From Acidobacteriota bacterium (GTDB taxonomy: Bacteria; Actinomycetota; Acidimicrobiia; Acidimicrobiales; Ilumatobacteraceae): a stretch of 43,286 nucleotides of DNA. Under the pieces are notes generated by a model. That model made no database searches. It was not told where the DNA came from and saw only the letters and a program-made list of their open reading frames with translations. The stretch lies in assembly GCA_018969685.1 (NCBI GenBank), contig JAGWXX010000007.1, forward strand, positions 1 to 43,286, read 5' to 3'. The translations under genes were made by a program, and so were the position numbers. Positions 15,288-23,437 of this stretch are shown one piece after another. The number at the start of each line of letters is the position of its first letter. The stretch's first letter is position 1.

Positions 15288-15995
15288 TCAGGACCGTTCG
15301 AACTTGTAGCCGAGCCCGCGGATCGTCACGATCCGCGCGGGGTTCGACGGATCGGACTCGACCTTCGCCCGCAGGCGCTTGACGTGCACGTCGAGCGTCT
15401 TGGTGTCGCCGAAGTAGTCGGATCCCCACACCTTGTCGATCAGCTGGTCCCTCGTCAGGACCCGGCCCGCGTGGGACATCAGCACCCAGAGCAGCTCGAA
15501 CTCCCGGAGCGGCAGCCGCACCGGCTCCCCGCGCACCGTCACCACGTGCCGCTCGGGGTCGATCGTCACGTCGCCCACGGCGACGGCAGACCCCGATCCA
15601 TCCGCGCCGTCGTCGGACGGGCGCTCGGCCCGGCGCAGCACGGCGCGGACGCGCGCCACCAGCTCGCGCAGGCGATACGGCTTGACCACGTAGTCGTCGG
15701 CACCCACCTCGAGGCCGACCACCGCGTCGATCTCCGCCCCCTTCGCCGTGACCATGATGATCGGCACCTGGCTCGTGCGCCGGATCTCGCGGCACACGTC
15801 GGTGCCGGACAGCCGCGGCAGCATCACGTCGAGCAGGATCACGTCCGGTGCAGACGCGGCGAACTCGTCCAGGGCCTCCGCTCCGTCGCGCGCCACGCGC
15901 ACCTCGAACCCCTCGCGCGACAGTCCCACCTGCAGGGCGTCGACGAAGGACTCCTCGTCGTCCACGACGAGCACGACCGGCCTGCGCTCAGGCAC
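15288..15995 (-). CDS. OmpR/PhoB-family response regulator, RegX3-like
   Basis: A 235-residue two-domain regulator. The receiver has the acidic pair Asp12-Asp13, phospho-acceptor Asp56 (ILLDVMLP), the Thr in MVTAKG and Lys in YVVKPY. The winged-helix DNA-binding domain follows (VTIDPERHVVTVRGE through TIRGLGYKFE), with the recognition segment TLDVHVKRLRAKV. GTG 15995 is chosen because GGGAGG lies five bases upstream; it overlaps the kinase gene by eight bases. With phoU and the kinase next door it most likely controls the phosphate-starvation response, as RegX3 does in mycobacteria. Confidence 0.93.
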   Translation of the reverse strand: MPERRPVVLVVDDEESFVDALQVGLSREGFEVRVARDGAEALDEFAASAPDVILLDVMLPRLSGTDVCREIRRTSQVPIIMVTAKGAEIDAVVGLEVGADDYVVKPYRLRELVARVRAVLRRAERPSDDGADGSGSAVAVGDVTIDPERHVVTVRGEPVRLPLREFELLWVLMSHAGRVLTRDQLIDKVWGSDYFGDTKTLDVHVKRLRAKVESDPSNPARIVTIRGLGYKFERS

Positions 15996-17031
15996 CGGCA
16001 CCTCCCGACGACGGCAGCGACACCGTGAAGGTGCTCCCACGCCCCTCCTCCGACCGCACCGTCACCGTGCCGCCGTGGTTGTCGACGACGTGCCGGACGA
16101 TCGACAGGCCGAGCCCCGTCCCCCCGGTGGCCCGGCTGCGCCCCTTGTCGACCCGGTAGAAGCGCTCGAAGATCCGTTCGTGGTCGGCGGCCGCGATGCC
16201 GATCCCGTGGTCGGCGACGGACACGACGACGCGGCCGTCCGACGTCCGGCACGTCACGTCGACCTCCCCGCCCCGGTTCGAGTACTTCACCGCGTTCTCC
16301 ACGAGGTTCGACACCGCGGACACGAGCTGGCTGCGGTCCCCCAGCACGGTGCATTCCCCGCCCACGGACACGGACACGGACACCGCCGACTGCTGCGCAG
16401 TGTGCTGCTGCTGGCCGACGGCCTCGCGCACGACGTCGGCCATGTCGAGCGGCTCCATGTCGCCCGATCCGAACTCGATGCGCGACAGGTCGAGGAGGTC
16501 GTCGACGATCGCCGCCATGCGGTGCGCCTCCGAGACGATGCGGCCGGCGAGACGGCGGACCGTCTCCGGGTCGTCCTCGCCCACGAGCGCGTCGCTCAGC
16601 GCCGCCACGCCGCCGATCGGCGTCTTCAGCTCGTGGCTGAGGTTGGCGACGAAGTCCGTCCGGACCGCGTCGATGCGCTTCCGGTCGGTCACGTCCTCGA
16701 TGCGCGCGACCGCACCCGACGGCGACAGACGGCTGCTCCGGATGACGAAGTGCCGGGGGGGCGGGCCCGCCACCACGATCTCGCGCTCGGCGTCGCCCGC
16801 GGCGAGCTGCTCCTGCGCCGCTCGCCACACGAGCACGTCGACGTGCCGCACGCCGGTCATCGCGGGTGCGCGACGGTTCTGCAGCACCCTGCCGTCCGGC
16901 AGTGCCACGACGACGCCGATCGGGATCTCGTCGAGCGCGGCGACCACGGTCCGTTCGTCGACGACGGGTTCGGTGGCGGCGTCACCGGGGCGCCCCTCCC
17001 CGTCGCCGCGGCGCCCGGGCCATGCGGGCAC
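15988..17031 (-). CDS. PAS-type sensor histidine kinase, SenX3/PhoR-like
   Basis: A 347-residue kinase. The N-terminal part (about 27-115) looks like a degenerate PAS domain (IPIGVVVALPDGRVLQNRRA ... IEDVTDRKR). The dimerisation domain carries the phospho-acceptor His133 in NLSHELKTPIGGV. The HATPase domain has the N box LVENAVKYS, the G1 box VADHGIGIA, the F box IFERFYRVDKGRSR and G2 GTGLGLSIV. No clear transmembrane segment is visible, unlike SenX3, so it may be soluble or tethered by partners. The GTG start follows the phoU TAG with no gap, and the gene overlaps the response regulator. Confidence 0.92.
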   Translation of the reverse strand: MPAWPGRRGDGEGRPGDAATEPVVDERTVVAALDEIPIGVVVALPDGRVLQNRRAPAMTGVRHVDVLVWRAAQEQLAAGDAEREIVVAGPPPRHFVIRSSRLSPSGAVARIEDVTDRKRIDAVRTDFVANLSHELKTPIGGVAALSDALVGEDDPETVRRLAGRIVSEAHRMAAIVDDLLDLSRIEFGSGDMEPLDMADVVREAVGQQQHTAQQSAVSVSVSVGGECTVLGDRSQLVSAVSNLVENAVKYSNRGGEVDVTCRTSDGRVVVSVADHGIGIAAADHERIFERFYRVDKGRSRATGGTGLGLSIVRHVVDNHGGTVTVRSEEGRGSTFTVSLPSSGGAGA

Positions 17032-17736
17032 CTACGAACCCGCTGGGGTCTGCCGTTCGTGGAAGCGGTTCGCGCCCTTGTGCTCCGGCTTCCACCCGGT
17101 GAGGAGGAAGCGCGTGCGCTCGGAGACGTTGACCGCGTGATCCCCGATCCGCTCGTAGAAGCGGGCGACGACGGCGAGCTGCACGGCGACGCTGAGTTCG
17201 ATCTGCTCGCGGGAGTGGATCTCGAACATCTCCTGCAGGAACTGCCGGTGCAGTCCGTCGAGGAACGAGTCCATGTCGTCAATCGCCGCCGCCTTGGGCG
17301 CATCGTTGGTCTCGAATGCGTCCATTGCCGCGATGTAGAGCTGCTGGGCCTGCTCGCTCATCTTGCTGATCAGTCCGCGCAGCACCGGGTCGATCGGGTG
17401 CCCGTAGATGCGTCGCGCGGCCTTGCAGATGTTCACCGCGAGGTCGGCGGAGCGCTCGAGCTCGCCGGAGATCTTGATGATCGCGACGAGTTCGCGCAGG
17501 TCGCGGGCCACGGGAGCCTGCAGCGCCAGCGCGCGGAAGCACCGGTCCTCGATGTCCACGGAACGGGCGTCGATCTCGTCGTCGGACTGCACGAGGTAGT
17601 CCGCACCCTCGAGGTCGCCGCTCAGGAGCACCGCGGTCGCGCGGGGAATGGCCTCGATGACGGAAGCCCCGAGCAGCAGCACCTCGCCCCGAAGTGCCTC
17701 GAGCTCCTGATGGAACGTCCTGCGCAGCTCTTCCAT
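17032..17736 (-). CDS. phoU: Phosphate-signalling protein PhoU
   Basis: A 234-residue PhoU, the all-helical protein that relays phosphate status from the Pst transporter to the sensor kinase and also affects persistence and polyphosphate levels. It has the repeated three-helix units with metal-ligand motifs: QSDDEIDARSVDIEDRCFR in the first repeat, and ARFYERIGDHAVNVSERT in the second. The ATG at 17736 has GGAGG about four bases upstream and a -10-like TAGCGT further up, so unlike its neighbours this gene has a short leader. It heads the phoU-kinase-regulator operon. Confidence 0.96.
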   Translation of the reverse strand: MEELRRTFHQELEALRGEVLLLGASVIEAIPRATAVLLSGDLEGADYLVQSDDEIDARSVDIEDRCFRALALQAPVARDLRELVAIIKISGELERSADLAVNICKAARRIYGHPIDPVLRGLISKMSEQAQQLYIAAMDAFETNDAPKAAAIDDMDSFLDGLHRQFLQEMFEIHSREQIELSVAVQLAVVARFYERIGDHAVNVSERTRFLLTGWKPEHKGANRFHERQTPAGS

Positions 17737-17827: not shown

Positions 17828-19864
17828 CTACTTCACCTGCGAGTTGCGCACCCATTCGTAGAGACGCTGCTGGGCGTCGGACGTCCCGACGATCCGCTCC
17901 CACGTCCCGTCGGGCCGCATCTCGAAGCGCGCCGCCGAGGCGTCGAGCAGGTACCCGAGCGCCCGATCGAGCCACGCACGGTGCTTGGGGTGCGTCACCG
18001 GTACGAGCACCTCCACCCTGCCGTCGAGGTTCCGCCCCATCAGGTCGGCGGACCCGATGAGGTGCAACGGCTCCCCGTCGAGGCCGTGGCCGAACCGGTA
18101 GATGCGCGAGTGCTCGAGGTAGCGGCCGAGGATCGAGCGCACCCTGACGCCCTCGGACAGGCCCGGCACGCCCGCGCGCAGGCAGCAGATTCCACGCACC
18201 ACCAGGTCGACGGATGCGCCAGCGGCGGCCGCACGGTAGAGCGCCTCGATGACCTCGGAGTCGGAGATCGAGTTCAGTTTCAGCGTCACCGACCCCTCGG
18301 AGCCGTGCGACGCCTCGCCGTCGATGAGCTCCACGATGCGACGCCGCAGCCGTTGTGGCGCCGCGATCAGCGTCCGGTAGTCCGGTCGGCGGGCGTATCC
18401 CGTGAGCGAGTTGAACAACTCGGTGGCATCGGCCCCCACGTCGTCCTCGCACGTGAAGTAGCCGAGGTCCTCGTACGACCGCGCAGTGACCGAGTTGTAG
18501 TTGCCCGTCCCGAGGTGCACGTACCGGCGCAGGCCGTCGGCCTCGTTCCGCACGACGAGGATGCACTTCGCGTGGGTCTTGAGGCCGACGAGCCCGTACG
18601 TCACGTGCACTCCGGCGAGCTCGAGTTCCTTCGCCCACGAGACGTTCCGCGCCTCGTCGAAGCGCGCCTTCAGCTCGAGCACGGCGGCGACCTGCTTGCC
18701 TGACTCGGCGGCGGCGATCAACTGGCGCGCGATCGACGAATCGCCCGAGGTCCGGTACAGCGTCGCCTTGATCGACTGCACGTGCGGATCGGCGGCAGCC
18801 TGCGCGACGAACGCCTCGGTCGACGACGAGAACGACTCGAACGGATGGTGGACCAGCAGCTGCCGCTCCCTGATGACGTCGAACATCGAACGGCCGGTCT
18901 CAGCCGCGTCGACGAGCCGCCCCGCGGTGACCGGCGGCCAGGGCCGGTGCCTGTGCATCGGCCGATCGAGGACCGCGATCTGGTTGAGGGCGGTGAAGTC
19001 CAGGAACGTGCGGTGGCGGACGACGTCGTCGCGCGACAGTTCGAGCTCGTCGAGCAGCAACCGGAGCACGTCGTCGGGGACGTCATCCTGCACCTCCAGC
19101 CGCACCGCACGGCCGAAGCGACGGCGGCGCAACTCGAGTTCGACCGCCTCCAGCAGATCCTCTGCGTCCTCGTCGTCGAGCGACAGGTCGGCGTTGCGGG
19201 TGACGCGGAAGACGTGGCTGCCCTCAATCTCCATTCCCGGGAAGAGCCGGGGCAGATGGGCCCGCACCGCCTCCTCAAGGAGCACGAACCGGTCGGCCGC
19301 CCCGGTCGGGACGACGCGCGCGAAGTTCGCCGGCATCTTCACGCGCGCAAACCTGCGCCCGTCGTTCGTGGGGTCGCGCACGAGGACCGCGAGGTTGAGC
19401 GCGAGGTTCGAGATGTACGGAAACGGGTGTGCGGGATCGACGGCGAGCGGCGTGAGGACGGGGAAGATGCGCGAGTCAAAGACGCGGCCCACCGTCTCGC
19501 GCTCGCCGTCGGACAGGGCATCCCATCCGAGCACCTCGATTCCCGCCCCCCGGAGGGCGGGCGACAACGAGTCGGACCAGAGGCGTTCCTGGCGGGCCAC
19601 CATCCCGCGCACGCGCACCGCGATCTCCGCGAGCTGCTGCGCCGGGGAGCGCCCGTCGGGCGACGGCGTCGCCACCTCCGCCGCGACCTGGTCCTTCAGC
19701 GCCGCGACGCGAATCTGGAAGAACTCATCGAGATTGCTGGAGACGATCGCCGCGAACCTGCAGCGCTCGAGGAGCGGCGTCGCCGACTCCTCGGCGAGGA
19801 CGAGCACCCTCTCGTCGAAGTCGAGCCAGCTCAGTTCGCGGTTGAGGTACCGCTCGTCGCCCAC
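17828..19864 (-). CDS. ppk1: Polyphosphate kinase 1
   Basis: PPK1 polymerises the terminal phosphate of ATP into polyphosphate. The 678-residue product shows all four domains: the N-domain (ERYLNRELSWLDFDERVL), the head domain, and the two phospholipase-D-like catalytic domains. His431 in GLKTHAKCILVV is the autophosphorylated residue (E. coli His435). His585 in RYLEHSRIYRFG matches E. coli His592. The signature YVHLGTGNYN is present. It lies 12 bases after orf94, with which it probably shares a promoter. Nearby phoU, a SenX3/RegX3-like pair and a divergent ppx place it in a phosphate-response module. Confidence 0.97.
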   Translation of the reverse strand: MGDERYLNRELSWLDFDERVLVLAEESATPLLERCRFAAIVSSNLDEFFQIRVAALKDQVAAEVATPSPDGRSPAQQLAEIAVRVRGMVARQERLWSDSLSPALRGAGIEVLGWDALSDGERETVGRVFDSRIFPVLTPLAVDPAHPFPYISNLALNLAVLVRDPTNDGRRFARVKMPANFARVVPTGAADRFVLLEEAVRAHLPRLFPGMEIEGSHVFRVTRNADLSLDDEDAEDLLEAVELELRRRRFGRAVRLEVQDDVPDDVLRLLLDELELSRDDVVRHRTFLDFTALNQIAVLDRPMHRHRPWPPVTAGRLVDAAETGRSMFDVIRERQLLVHHPFESFSSSTEAFVAQAAADPHVQSIKATLYRTSGDSSIARQLIAAAESGKQVAAVLELKARFDEARNVSWAKELELAGVHVTYGLVGLKTHAKCILVVRNEADGLRRYVHLGTGNYNSVTARSYEDLGYFTCEDDVGADATELFNSLTGYARRPDYRTLIAAPQRLRRRIVELIDGEASHGSEGSVTLKLNSISDSEVIEALYRAAAAGASVDLVVRGICCLRAGVPGLSEGVRVRSILGRYLEHSRIYRFGHGLDGEPLHLIGSADLMGRNLDGRVEVLVPVTHPKHRAWLDRALGYLLDASAARFEMRPDGTWERIVGTSDAQQRLYEWVRNSQVK

Positions 19865-19876
19865 GGCCGCCCCGGG

Positions 19877-20161
19877 TCAGAAGTGGCGGGTATCGGTGAG
19901 GACCGGAATGTCGGGTTCCCACTCCACCGTGATGCGCTCGCGCCGCGCGTCGTTGTCGATGCGCACGCGGTTGCGGCGCACCTGCGGGTCGCGGGGCGTG
20001 ATCAGCACGAGCCGGGCCAGCACCCGCGCACGGAAGTCCTCCATGTGGTTCGGATCGCCGTAGTCGGCGTACACCTCCCAATGGGGCGCCACGGGGCCCA
20101 GGTACACGATCCGCGCGTGCCCGACCGGGGGCAGGACGTCCTGATACTCCATGTGCGACAC
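19877..20161 (-). CDS. Conserved-looking 94-residue protein upstream of ppk1, function unknown
   Basis: I do not recognise this family. The product is soluble, with no signal or membrane segment. It is rich in charged and aromatic residues: YLGPVAPHWEVYADYGDP, then a basic stretch ITPRDPQVRRNRVRIDND and the strand-like ERITVEWEPDIPVLTD. It may be a small alpha/beta domain. GTG 20161 is used rather than ATG 20152 because a TAGCCT hexamer ends seven bases before it. It is the first gene of the unit with ppk1 and divergent from whiB-ppx, so a role in polyphosphate control is a reasonable guess by position only. Confidence 0.7.
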   Translation of the reverse strand: MSHMEYQDVLPPVGHARIVYLGPVAPHWEVYADYGDPNHMEDFRARVLARLVLITPRDPQVRRNRVRIDNDARRERITVEWEPDIPVLTDTRHF

Positions 20162-20207
20162 GCTGGACAGGCTACCGACGGAGGGGACGAGTAGGGTGTC
20201 CAGCACG
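20162..20207. promoter_or_regulatory. Compact divergent promoter region between orf94-ppk1 and whiB-ppx
   Basis: The 46 bases hold two outward-facing -10-like hexamers. TAGCCT (minus, 20169-20174) is seven bases from GTG 20161. TAGGGT (plus, 20192-20197) is ten bases from GTG 20208. Only 17 bases separate them, so their upstream polymerase contacts must overlap. Confidence 0.6.
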
Positions 20208-20489
20208 GTGAAGGACTTCTCCACAGACCCGTCTGCGGTGGTCCGGTCGACCGACTGGATGCAGCAGGGCAACTGCCGGGACACGAACCCGGCCGTCTTC
20301 TTCCCCTCTGACGGGGCGGGGGTCGAGCGCGCCCGCGCGGTCTGCGTCAACTGCCCCGTTGCGGCCCAGTGCCTGGAGTACGCCCTCGCCCTGCACATCG
20401 ACCACGGGGTCTGGGGCGGCTGCTCCGAGCGCGAGCGCCGGCGCATCGCCAAGCGCCGCCGCCTCGAGGCCGAGCGCCGCGCCAGCTGA
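20208..20489 (+). CDS. WhiB-family iron-sulfur transcriptional regulator
   Basis: A 93-residue Wbl protein. Cys23, Cys46, Cys49 and Cys55 form the C-xn-C-x2-C-x5-C 4Fe-4S site. HGVWGGCSERERRR (about 66-79) is the sigma-factor-contacting G(V/I)WGG turn followed by a basic tail (AKRRRLEAERR) for DNA contact. An extra Cys72 follows the GVWGG motif, where most family members have another residue. Start choice is uncertain: GTG 20208 fits the promoter best, while GTG 20196 overlaps it. The stop is ten bases before ppx, so the redox-sensing regulator and exopolyphosphatase are co-transcribed. Confidence 0.9.
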   Translation: MKDFSTDPSAVVRSTDWMQQGNCRDTNPAVFFPSDGAGVERARAVCVNCPVAAQCLEYALALHIDHGVWGGCSERERRRIAKRRRLEAERRAS

Positions 20490-20499
20490 GCAGCCCGCC

Positions 20500-22026
20500 G
20501 TGGCCGGCTTGGACCTGATCGCCGCGATCGACGTCGGCACCAACAGTTTCCACATGGTCGTCGCCCGGGCGGTGCCGAACGGCTTCGAGGTCGTCACCCG
20601 CGAGAAGGAGACCGTCCGCCTCGGCACCGGTTCGGGCGAGATGTCCCGACTCGACGAGGCGCGGATGGACCGCGGGGTCGCCTGCCTCGCACGGATGGCG
20701 GACGTCGCCGCGTCGCACGGCGCGGAGGTCCGCGCCGTCGCCACCAGCGCGGTCCGGGAGGCCCGGAACCGCGGCGAATTCGTCAAGCGCGTCCGCCGCG
20801 AGGCGGGCATCGAGCTCGAGGTCATCTCCGGCGTGGAAGAGGCGCGGCTCATCCACCTGGGCGCGTCCCGGGCGATCGGCGGAAGCGCACGGATGCTCCT
20901 CTGCGACATCGGTGGCGGCTCGACCGAGATCGTGATCGGCGGAGCCGACGAGGAACTGCTGGCCCGCAGCTTCAAGCTCGGCGCGGTGCGACTCACGGAG
21001 CGGTTCTTCTTGGACGACTCCCTGCACCCCGCCGCCATCAGCGCATGCCGGGCCTACGCCCGGTCGCGGCTCGTCGCCATCGAGCGCGACGTGGCGGCAC
21101 TCGGCTTCGACGTGGCGGTGGCGTCGTCGGGCACGGCCGAGACGGTGGCGCGGCTCGTCGCCACCGCGGGCGGACAACCCGAGCCGCACAACCTGAACCG
21201 GTTCGCATTCAGCCGTAGCGACGTCTCAACGACCGTCGCGCGGCTCGCCGCGCACCGCACGGCCGGCGAGCGCTCCGCCGCCCTCGGCATCGACCGCAAC
21301 CGCGCAGAGATCATCATCGCCGGCGCCGTCATCCTCGAGGCGGTCGCCGACGTCTTCCGCGTGCAGGAGTTCGTGTTCAGCGACTACGCACTCAGGGAGG
21401 GCCTGCTCATCGACACCCTGCGCCGGCGCGGCCTCTCGCCCGCCGCGGGCGACCCTGCGATGCACAGCGTCGAGCAGCTGGCACGGCGCTGCGACGACCG
21501 TCCCGAGCACTCGCGCCACGTCGCCCGGCTGGCGGTGCGCCTGTTCGACCAGCTCCGCGACGACCTCGGCGTCGACGCCTCGGCCCGCAGGCTGCTCGAG
21601 GCCGCCGCCCTGCTCGCCAACGTCGGCGTCGTGGTGTCGCACACGCGCCACCACCACCACTCGTACTACGTGATCCGCAACTCCGAGCTGGTCGGCCTCA
21701 GCGACCGCGAGATCGAGGTGATCGCACAGGTCGCGCGGTACCACCGCAAGGGCGCCCCCAAGGCCGACCACCCCGAGTTCGCCGCGCTGCCCGCCCGCGA
21801 CCAGCACCTGGTGCGCGCGCTCGCCGGAGTGCTGCGCATCGCGATCGGCCTCGACCGCACGTTGGACGGACGGGTGACGGACGTGACCGTCGAGCGCGGC
21901 ACGGATGCCCTCGTGCTCTGCTACTCGGCGGCGGGCGCGAGGGACGTGATCGACTACGCCGTGAAGGAACGCTGCGGGCTGATCGCCGACGTTCTGGGTC
22001 GCGACATCGAGGTCGCGACCTCCTGA
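20500..22026 (+). CDS. ppx: Exopolyphosphatase, Ppx/GppA family
   Basis: Ppx/GppA enzymes remove phosphate from polyphosphate or pppGpp. The 508-residue product has the ASKHA core: phosphate loop AAIDVGTNSFHMVVAR, then ATSAVREARNRGEFVKRV, then CDIGGGSTEIVIGG and VASSGTAETVARL. This is a long form with a C-terminal HD-type domain (from about 320): HSRHVARLAVRLFDQLRDD and SHTRHHHHSYYVIRNSEL, then ARYHRKGAP. The HD dyad position reads LLANVG where family members usually have LHDVG or LHEVG, so metal binding there is doubtful. GTG 20500 follows whiB by ten bases. Confidence 0.93.
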   Translation: MAGLDLIAAIDVGTNSFHMVVARAVPNGFEVVTREKETVRLGTGSGEMSRLDEARMDRGVACLARMADVAASHGAEVRAVATSAVREARNRGEFVKRVRREAGIELEVISGVEEARLIHLGASRAIGGSARMLLCDIGGGSTEIVIGGADEELLARSFKLGAVRLTERFFLDDSLHPAAISACRAYARSRLVAIERDVAALGFDVAVASSGTAETVARLVATAGGQPEPHNLNRFAFSRSDVSTTVARLAAHRTAGERSAALGIDRNRAEIIIAGAVILEAVADVFRVQEFVFSDYALREGLLIDTLRRRGLSPAAGDPAMHSVEQLARRCDDRPEHSRHVARLAVRLFDQLRDDLGVDASARRLLEAAALLANVGVVVSHTRHHHHSYYVIRNSELVGLSDREIEVIAQVARYHRKGAPKADHPEFAALPARDQHLVRALAGVLRIAIGLDRTLDGRVTDVTVERGTDALVLCYSAAGARDVIDYAVKERCGLIADVLGRDIEVATS

Positions 22027-22290: not shown

Positions 22291-23091
22291 ATGTCCGTGC
22301 TGGAGTGCGTGGTGAACGTGAGCGAGGGATCCGACCGGCGGGTGCTGGCGGCCCTGACCGAGGCCGCCGGCAGCGACCTGCTCGATGTCCACAGCGACGG
22401 GGACCACAACCGCAGCGTCTTCACGATGGTCGGCACCGAGGCGCCCCGGCGGCTCGCGCGCCGCACCGTCGAGCTCCTCGACCTCTCCCGCCACGAGGGC
22501 GTCCACCCGAGGGTCGGCGCCGTCGACGTCGTGCCATTCGTCCCGCTCGCTCCGACGACCTGGGCCGAGGCGCTGGCCGCACGCGACGACTTCGCCCGCT
22601 TCGCCGCGGACGAGCTGGGCGTGCCGTGCTTCCTCTACGGGCCAGAGCGCACCCTTCCCGACATCCGCGCGCACGCCTTCGGCGGGTTGCTGCCCGACCA
22701 CGGTCCGTCGACGCCGCACCCGACCGCAGGGGCGATGTGCGTCGGCGCGCGGGAGATCCTGGTCGCCTACAACGTGTGGCTCGACAACGGCGACGTGGAC
22801 CTCGCGAAGTCGATCGCGCGCGAGCTGCGCAGTCCGTCGGTGCGCGCGCTCGGCCTGCTGGTCGGGAAATGGGCGCAGGTGAGCATGAACCTCATCGCGC
22901 CCGACGTCACCGGCCCCGCTGCGGTCTACGACGCAGTGGCGGCGCGGGCTCCGGTACGGCGCGCAGAACTGGTCGGCCTGGCGCCGTCGCGCACGCTCGC
23001 CTCGATCGACCGGAGCCGATGGGCGGAACTGGATCTTGCCCCGGACCGCACGATCGAGTCCCGGATCGCGGGTCGCAGCATTCCCCGCTGA
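22291..23091 (+). CDS. Glutamate formimidoyltransferase-like protein (FtcD N-terminal type)
   Basis: A 266-residue protein matching the formiminotransferase N- and C-subdomains: ECVVNVSEGSDRRVLAALTE at the start, then DVHSDGDHNRSVFTMVG, then HEGVHPRVGAVDVVPFVPL and GVPCFLYG. Later come HPTAGAMCVGAREILVAYNVWL and ALGLLVGKWAQVSMNLI. The family transfers formimino groups from formiminoglutamate to tetrahydrofolate in histidine breakdown. No hut gene or cyclodeaminase domain is present. Such stand-alone proteins are common in actinomycetes and their substrate is often uncertain. Confidence 0.9.
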   Translation: MSVLECVVNVSEGSDRRVLAALTEAAGSDLLDVHSDGDHNRSVFTMVGTEAPRRLARRTVELLDLSRHEGVHPRVGAVDVVPFVPLAPTTWAEALAARDDFARFAADELGVPCFLYGPERTLPDIRAHAFGGLLPDHGPSTPHPTAGAMCVGAREILVAYNVWLDNGDVDLAKSIARELRSPSVRALGLLVGKWAQVSMNLIAPDVTGPAAVYDAVAARAPVRRAELVGLAPSRTLASIDRSRWAELDLAPDRTIESRIAGRSIPR

Positions 23092-23158: not shown

Positions 23159-23437
23159 TCAGGCGGTGGCTGCGGTGCCCGTGCCCTCTTCGCGCTGCTT
23201 GCGGCGCAACTTGCGCCGCTCGCGCTCGGACAGCCCGCCCCAGATGCCGAACTTCTCGCCGTTCGCGAGCGCGAACTCGAGGCAATCCTGCTTCACCACG
23301 CAGCCCCTGCACACTTCCTTGGCCTCACGGGTGGACGCGCCGCGCTCCGGGAAAAACAAGTCGGGATCGACGCCCAGGCAGTTCGCCTGGTCCTGCCACT
23401 GACGGTCGCCGACGAGCGGCGGCATTCCACCTTCCAC
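23159..23437 (-). CDS. whiB2: WhiB2-like (WhmD-like) iron-sulfur regulator
   Basis: A 92-residue Wbl protein close to WhiB2/WhmD, which controls septation and cell division in mycobacteria and streptomycetes. Cys20, Cys43, Cys46 and Cys52 ligate the cluster. The regions WQDQANCLGVDPDLFFPERG, STREAKEVCRGCVVKQDCLE and FGIWGGLSERERRKLRRKQR are characteristic of that subgroup. It is a single gene, read from a longer leader than most genes here, with AGGAGG ten bases before the GTG start. A sigma70-like promoter and a perfect palindrome lie upstream. Confidence 0.93.
   Translation of the reverse strand: MEGGMPPLVGDRQWQDQANCLGVDPDLFFPERGASTREAKEVCRGCVVKQDCLEFALANGEKFGIWGGLSERERRKLRRKQREEGTGTAATA

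Follow-up and report, generated by a model that had tools for sequence, protein, structure and literature searches.

In the window, by which we mean the whole 43,286-nt stretch of DNA analysed here, taken from a draft genome of 1.96 Mb in 124 contigs, a gene for making polyphosphate and a gene probably for degrading it are read in opposite directions from an intergenic region of 46 bp. As far as sequence and gene order can tell, this divergence is real, is conserved in three genera of the family and is repeated in a fourth. We give an even chance to the reading that the compact, overlapping divergent promoters of this region work as a competition device; the arrangement suggests that polyphosphate synthesis and breakdown may be balanced by the placement of RNA polymerase on DNA. 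The original prediction had proposed opposing genes on overlapping promoters with a WhiB regulator as the switch between them; the opposing divergent genes and the overlapping promoters are supported, the WhiB switch is not. Genera of the family are given under working labels: g1 (the window's genus), g173, g178, g8 and g9.

The predicted distance of 46 bp between the start of orf94 (minus strand) and that of whiB (plus strand) was confirmed on the sequence, as was the separation of 17 bases between two -10-like hexamers, TAGCCT on the minus strand and TAGGGT on the plus strand. The features of the locus are the following:

15288–16040, minus: OmpR/PhoB-type response regulator (Pfam and NCBIfam domains).
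15988–17031, minus: PhoR/SenX3-like sensor histidine kinase (HisKA and HATPase domains).
17032–17736, minus: phoU (TIGR02135, 172.9 bits).
17828–19864, minus: ppk1, polyphosphate kinase 1 (GTG start at 19864; TIGR03705, 742.7 bits).
19877–20161, minus: orf94, uncharacterised, 94 aa (GTG start at 20161).
20162–20207: the 46 bp that separate the divergent genes orf94 and whiB, with both predicted promoters inside.
20169–20174, minus (read 20174–20169): predicted -10 of orf94–ppk1, TAGCCT, 7 nt before the GTG, with CGG ahead.
20192–20197, plus: predicted -10 of whiB–ppx, TAGGGT, 10 nt before the whiB GTG.
20208–20489, plus: whiB, Wbl family (GTG start at 20208; C23, C46, C49 and C55 plus GVWGG).
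20500–22026, plus: ppx, encoding a long phosphatase of the Ppx/GppA family that includes domain III (GTG start at 20500).
22291–23091, plus: FTCD_N-domain gene, often found behind whiB or ppx in relatives.
23159–23437, minus: second Wbl gene (closest solved chain, Streptomyces WhiB).

The ppk1 start lies 12 bases past the orf94 stop, and the ppx start 10 bases past the whiB stop. The ppk1 product belongs to the PPK1 family, its 742.7 bits against TIGR03705 exceeding the cut-off of 465.85, and the whiB product is a Wbl protein with four cysteines and a G[VI]WGG motif (PF02467, 81.9 bits, E 4.9e-23). For the ppx product, the best-matching solved chains bear the name exopolyphosphatase (221 bits) and the best GppA chain reaches 177 bits; against the curated Ppx model TIGR03706 it scores 258, below the cut-off of 307. 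By its nearest solved chains the enzyme is probably an exopolyphosphatase, and GppA activity is also possible. The same genome encodes a second, short Ppx/GppA protein (G000:C83:209-1147). Behind ppk1, phoU and a two-component pair, described as SenX3/RegX3-like in the original prediction, are borne out by domain matches and gene order. The best curated model for the kinase is PnpS (264.5, below its cut-off of 400) and for the response regulator YycF (272.4, below 340); the PhoR and PhoB models are likewise below cut-off, and no SenX3 or RegX3 model appears among the best 25 NCBIfam matches listed. In the related loci L197, L198 and L201–L206, no sensor-kinase match lies between phoU and the response regulator, which directly follows phoU and may be an orphan.

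A survey of 150 genomes of the family included 37 from three genera, and in 34 of these the long ppx and orf94 were divergent neighbours (10/13 in g1, 12/12 in g173 and 12/12 in g178). The exceptions are G304, where ppx sits at a contig start and no orf94 is present, G310, where the contig ends within whiB, and G317, where neither gene was found. At the fetched loci ppk1 lies behind orf94 in 41/41 cases and ppx is in place in 40/41, the contig of L201 ending first. Only 11 of the 41, all from g1, have whiB in between, the window being a further whiB-bearing case; in every fetched whiB-less group ppx lies directly against the orf94–ppk1 promoter. Conservation of the whiB–ppx/ppk1 arrangement in relatives, the lack of which the original prediction had named as a refutation, is found for the ppk1/ppx divergence and not for the whiB–ppx unit, whiB being often absent.

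Another 27 genomes of the family possess a long ppx and orf94 that are not side by side. In 25 of them ppx is on another contig, so the two genes could still adjoin at contig ends there; in G344 they are about 700 kb apart, and in G395 ppx is 2.4 kb from orf94 with an inverted ppk1 between. Left out before this count were G327, G415 and G430, which have no orf94, and G328, G331 and G350, which have a partial ppx. On a ppk1 tree g1, g173 and g178 fall into a single clade (100/100), in which the window is the earliest branch and groups that lack whiB are interspersed among whiB-bearing sequences. The fork setting the window apart is supported at 95/94 (81/92 in a smaller ppk1 tree), and the inner order is partly resolved. 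The simplest reading of these data would be one arrival of ppx behind whiB, followed by two or three losses of whiB.

The orf94 element, CGG-TAGCCT, is of the CGN-TANNNT class and stands at the distance typical of actinobacterial leaderless promoters, in which about 7 nt separate TANNNT from the start codon. In M. tuberculosis, according to the available part of PMC3898074, a TANNNT -10 is present at 73% of primary start sites, often after CGN, no -35 motif was found at these sites, and of the genes for which a primary start site is known, about one quarter give leaderless transcripts. The orf94–ppk1 mRNA is predicted to be leaderless or nearly so; the whiB -10, lying 10 nt before the start, predicts a short leader of a few nucleotides. 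The start sites, predicted by a 7-nt rule, are about 42 bp apart. A scan of 19500–21000 for TTGACA/TATAAT returned 0 promoters, so the window promoters would be of a -10-only type, which is not to be judged from one genome. As a promoter test this sigma-70 consensus scan was discarded as uninformative, an empty result being expected for actinobacteria.

Comparison across relatives supports both predicted -10 elements, with conservation far above that in shuffled sequences. TANNNT occurs 6–8 nt before an in-frame orf94 start in 18 of 18 distinct g1 loci (shuffle mean 0.73, maximum 3). Elsewhere in the order, 36 of 92 distinct loci have it at this distance (shuffle mean 0.90, maximum 5). The same spacing is found in 0/11 loci of g178 and 1/11 of g173, the latter before a TTG, because a short leader, with a stretch resembling a Shine-Dalgarno sequence, apparently precedes orf94 there; the hexamer itself is still present. 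CGR-TANNNT precedes orf94 in 40/40 distinct loci, a pattern that the script required and that was set from sequences already seen, and no locus failed. On the opposite side, TANNNT stands 10–14 nt before the whiB start in 12/12 distinct g1 loci, nine of them recognised by script (shuffle mean 0.86) and three by reading, with the spacing range set post hoc. Where whiB is missing, every distinct locus of three groups (11/11, 11/11 and 6/6) has TANNNT 6–9 nt before the ppx start (shuffle means 0.41, 0.62 and 0.26, respectively). No leaderless -10 was found before ppk1 in the 16 loci inspected (L187 offers no candidate start), which is in line with an orf94–ppk1 operon.

The window and L196 have 17 bp between the two -10s; the gap is 15 bp in 6/6 loci, 21 bp in 6/6 and 19 bp in 11/11 loci of g173, where nine distinct spacers differ at 1–8 of the 19 positions. 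Spacing fixed within groups may reflect descent alone. In the whiB-bearing loci L197–L200 the gap widens to 57 bp (two loci) and 93 bp (two loci), so that tight overlap is neither universal nor required by all relatives. At the other extreme, the gap is -2 in 11/11 distinct loci of g178: the plus-strand hexamer TATCGT and the minus-strand hexamer, TAGC(C/G)T or TAGTCT, share a TA, and the predicted start sites are 23 bp apart. The g178 region is thus predicted to be a bidirectional promoter, and its shared central TA, which would be read in both directions, apparently goes back to a single base change, from the TATCGG or TATCGC of relatives to TATCGT, beside the old orf94 -10.

In the E. coli ppk–ppx operon the kinase and exopolyphosphatase genes are also linked, but they are co-directional there and divergent here. 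Closer parallels come from promoter geometry. The bidirectional promoters of E. coli described by Warman et al. 2026, in the available part of PMC12825309, likewise produce divergent mRNAs from -10s that overlap or are pseudo-symmetric, with polymerase binding one way at a time; their common start-site distances are 18, 10 and 23 bp. By the definition used there, divergent starts within a shared -10 or on either side of it, only g178 would count as bidirectional, by prediction, with its shared TA and its predicted distance of 23 bp. The window falls outside that definition: with its -10s 17 bp and its starts about 42 bp apart, it holds two overlapping divergent promoters and not one bidirectional promoter. 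Juxtaposed leaderless promoters of mycobacteria, as presented in the available part of PMC3898074, resemble the locus in having TANNNT after CGN, no -35 and leaderless transcripts; they serve other genes, whereas the pair here encodes opposing enzymes. An actinobacterial two-component system that controls polyphosphate genes is known from Microlunatus phosphovorus, in which PolS–PolR exerts oxygen-linked control of ppk (available part of PMC6754071). The regulator in the window is a different one, and no exact PolR-like GTTCA half-site occurs on either strand of 20101–20300. We found no published report of divergently transcribed ppk and ppx and no paper on an Ilumatobacter polyphosphate kinase with phoU, in a search with most subscription journals outside its range; in the available part of PMC3353115, the ppk/ppx divergent-promoter terms occur in the reference list only.

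A second ppk1/ppx pair is found in genus g8. In three genomes of this genus ppx and ppk1 are divergent and adjacent, with likely starts about 100 bp apart, at these positions:

L219, 2953–6651: ppx and ppk1, divergent.
L220, 5196–8887: ppx and ppk1, divergent.
L221, 5360–9022: ppx and ppk1, divergent.

TANNNT lies 6–7 nt before the ppk1 start in these pairs. On the ppx side none was found near ppx in L220 and L221, and in L219 it stands 24 nt ahead of the likely start, so that promoter sharing or overlap in g8 is at most a possibility. One ppk1 was found in each of these g8 genomes; in G374 and G434 it and orf94 are on different contigs, and in G395 (the genome of L219) it is beside orf94, inverted, between ppx–phoU and orf94. 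The g8 ppk1 sequences form a clade of their own (100/100) apart from that of the window, which implies that close ppk1/ppx divergence arose at least twice in the family. In 12 other fetched ppx neighbourhoods ppk1 was absent, L222 being cut by a contig end.

We hypothesize that one promoter of the window serves orf94–ppk1, perhaps together with phoU and the sensor pair, and that the other serves ppx, with or without whiB before it. Both would be -10-only TANNNT promoters whose mRNAs have no leader or almost none. Given the predicted distance of about 42 bp between starts, a polymerase on either promoter would cover the -10/-35 zone of the other, so only one side would be engaged at a time; joint occupancy by two polymerases is probably precluded at gaps of 15–21 bp. 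The original claim that polymerase cannot occupy both promoters fits this estimate, but exclusion of occupancy, on our analysis, is not exclusion of expression. At low activity both sides would fire independently. Once an activator raised one side, the other would be pushed down, and the cell would be biased to making or to using polyphosphate. The likeliest activator would be the response regulator for phosphate or else a signal of growth state, with the neighbouring two-component pair a candidate by position. The sequence anatomy, the conservation of the -10s and of gene order, the single clade, the whiB losses within it and the separate ppk1/ppx divergence are observations; where transcription starts, which genes share an operon, steric exclusion, how the locus is regulated and what it does for the cell are inferred. 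Its strongest form, an antagonistic switch that operates without a dedicated regulator because the promoters of opposing enzymes exclude each other, seems to us rather unlikely.

Ordinary compact divergent promoters without interference, each side regulated alone in a streamlined genome, are a serious alternative that we hold possible, although at less than an even chance. The draft genomes of these genera are small (0.9–2.2 Mb), and their genes may be tightly packed without any regulatory purpose; close divergent promoters are common in the M. tuberculosis transcriptome, according to a figure legend in the available part of PMC3898074. Furthermore, the five E. coli bidirectional promoters tested by Warman et al. 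2026 showed no competition at basal activity, which was too low for it, and competition appeared only once one direction was activated (available part of PMC12825309). The 57- and 93-bp gaps of L197–L200, the 27 genomes in which ppx and orf94 do not adjoin, the weak ppx-side evidence in g8, the second, short Ppx and the missing GTTCA half-site also count against a competition device. Simple compaction accounts less readily for close ppk1/ppx divergence in two separate clades of the family and in different settings, or for the position of ppx directly against the orf94–ppk1 promoter in every fetched group without whiB.

If the overlap does act as a competition device, it would be a minimal answer, by promoter geometry, to the problem of avoiding simultaneous making and degrading of polyphosphate. 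Overlapping divergent promoters are already known; what the present case adds is that the enzymes oppose each other, that the pairing arose repeatedly and that its spacings form a graded series. The natural series of gaps (-2, 15, 17, 19, 21, 57 and 93 bp) with the same genes amounts to a ready-made experiment on interference versus spacing, for which the separate g8 pair offers a comparison.

The original prediction further proposed that WhiB, whose gene comes first in the ppx unit, could respond to redox state and so decide which side is active. The protein does retain the four cysteines and GVWGG, and sigma region 4 is a partner of several Wbl proteins (available part of PMC6282962), which would suit a promoter-bound switch. 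The divergence of whiB and orf94 is also widespread in the order: among named loci with sufficient flank (from the best 80 of 391 by orf94 similarity, a biased sample), a divergent whiB lies no more than 2.1 kb upstream of orf94 in 66/69, ppk1 follows orf94 in 33/75 and ppx is near in 0/59. In L064, L080, L095 and L106 an ORF of 1.3–1.6 kb on the orf94 strand lies between orf94 and whiB. Since whiB accompanies orf94 across the order without ppx, it is an old neighbour of orf94 and not a ppx regulator by descent, and its product may still act on this promoter.

Against a WhiB switch, whiB is absent at the locus in all fetched loci of g173 and g178 and in part of g1, and the divergent promoter and ppx persist there. 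In none of the 14 searched genomes without whiB at the locus was an orthologue found elsewhere, these being drafts 67–98% complete. Identity of the orthologue is 75–77% in those whiB-bearing g1 genomes that were searched, 59% in g8 and 68% in g9; the best other Wbl match in the 14 whiB-less genomes reaches at most 57%. As that value is close to the 59% of the g8 orthologue, a Wbl tree was made, in which the best candidates from 8 of the 14 genomes (their best non-WhiB_b matches) all fall outside the whiB clade (100/100), although with 71 columns and odd long branches the tree is weak. Judged by gene content, the iron-sulfur regulator is dispensable at the locus, and we regard WhiB as the switch as improbable.

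It is very improbable that orf94/whiB is the conserved unit, with orf94 the main controlled gene and ppk1 and ppx as passengers: the order-wide counts above and the presence of orf94 in 284 of 298 genomes of the order speak for it, but it leaves unexplained both the retention of ppx where whiB was lost and the ppk1/ppx pairs away from orf94 (L220, L221).

Within the phylum, orf94 was found in 24 of 296 genomes, all of the same order or class. The family has invariant GPVAPHWE and DPQ motifs, and an AF2 model (mean pLDDT 84) predicts an E-E-H-H-E fold. The protein has no Pfam or NCBIfam match (among 43 members the best Pfam E value is 0.032, in one member only), no solved relative by sequence (best E 0.98) and no Foldseek match of its model at E ≤ 0.001. 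An RNase J C-terminal-domain fold was considered and rejected, as the top VIA-align Z score of 6.4, against 4.4 for the next protein, is below the trust level.

Among candidate regulatory motifs, an apparent inverted repeat in the promoter arms, TAGCCTGTCCAGCGTG / TAGGGTGTCCAGCACG, was dropped because by eye it is not retained in the relatives inspected. GACAC, a WhiA-type motif, was located at 20157, at 20280 and, on the opposite strand, at 20196–20200. The second Wbl gene lies about 3 kb from the locus on the opposite strand; among solved chains its product matches Streptomyces WhiB at 99 bits, and the gene is 79–93% identical wherever it is found beside the locus in relatives.
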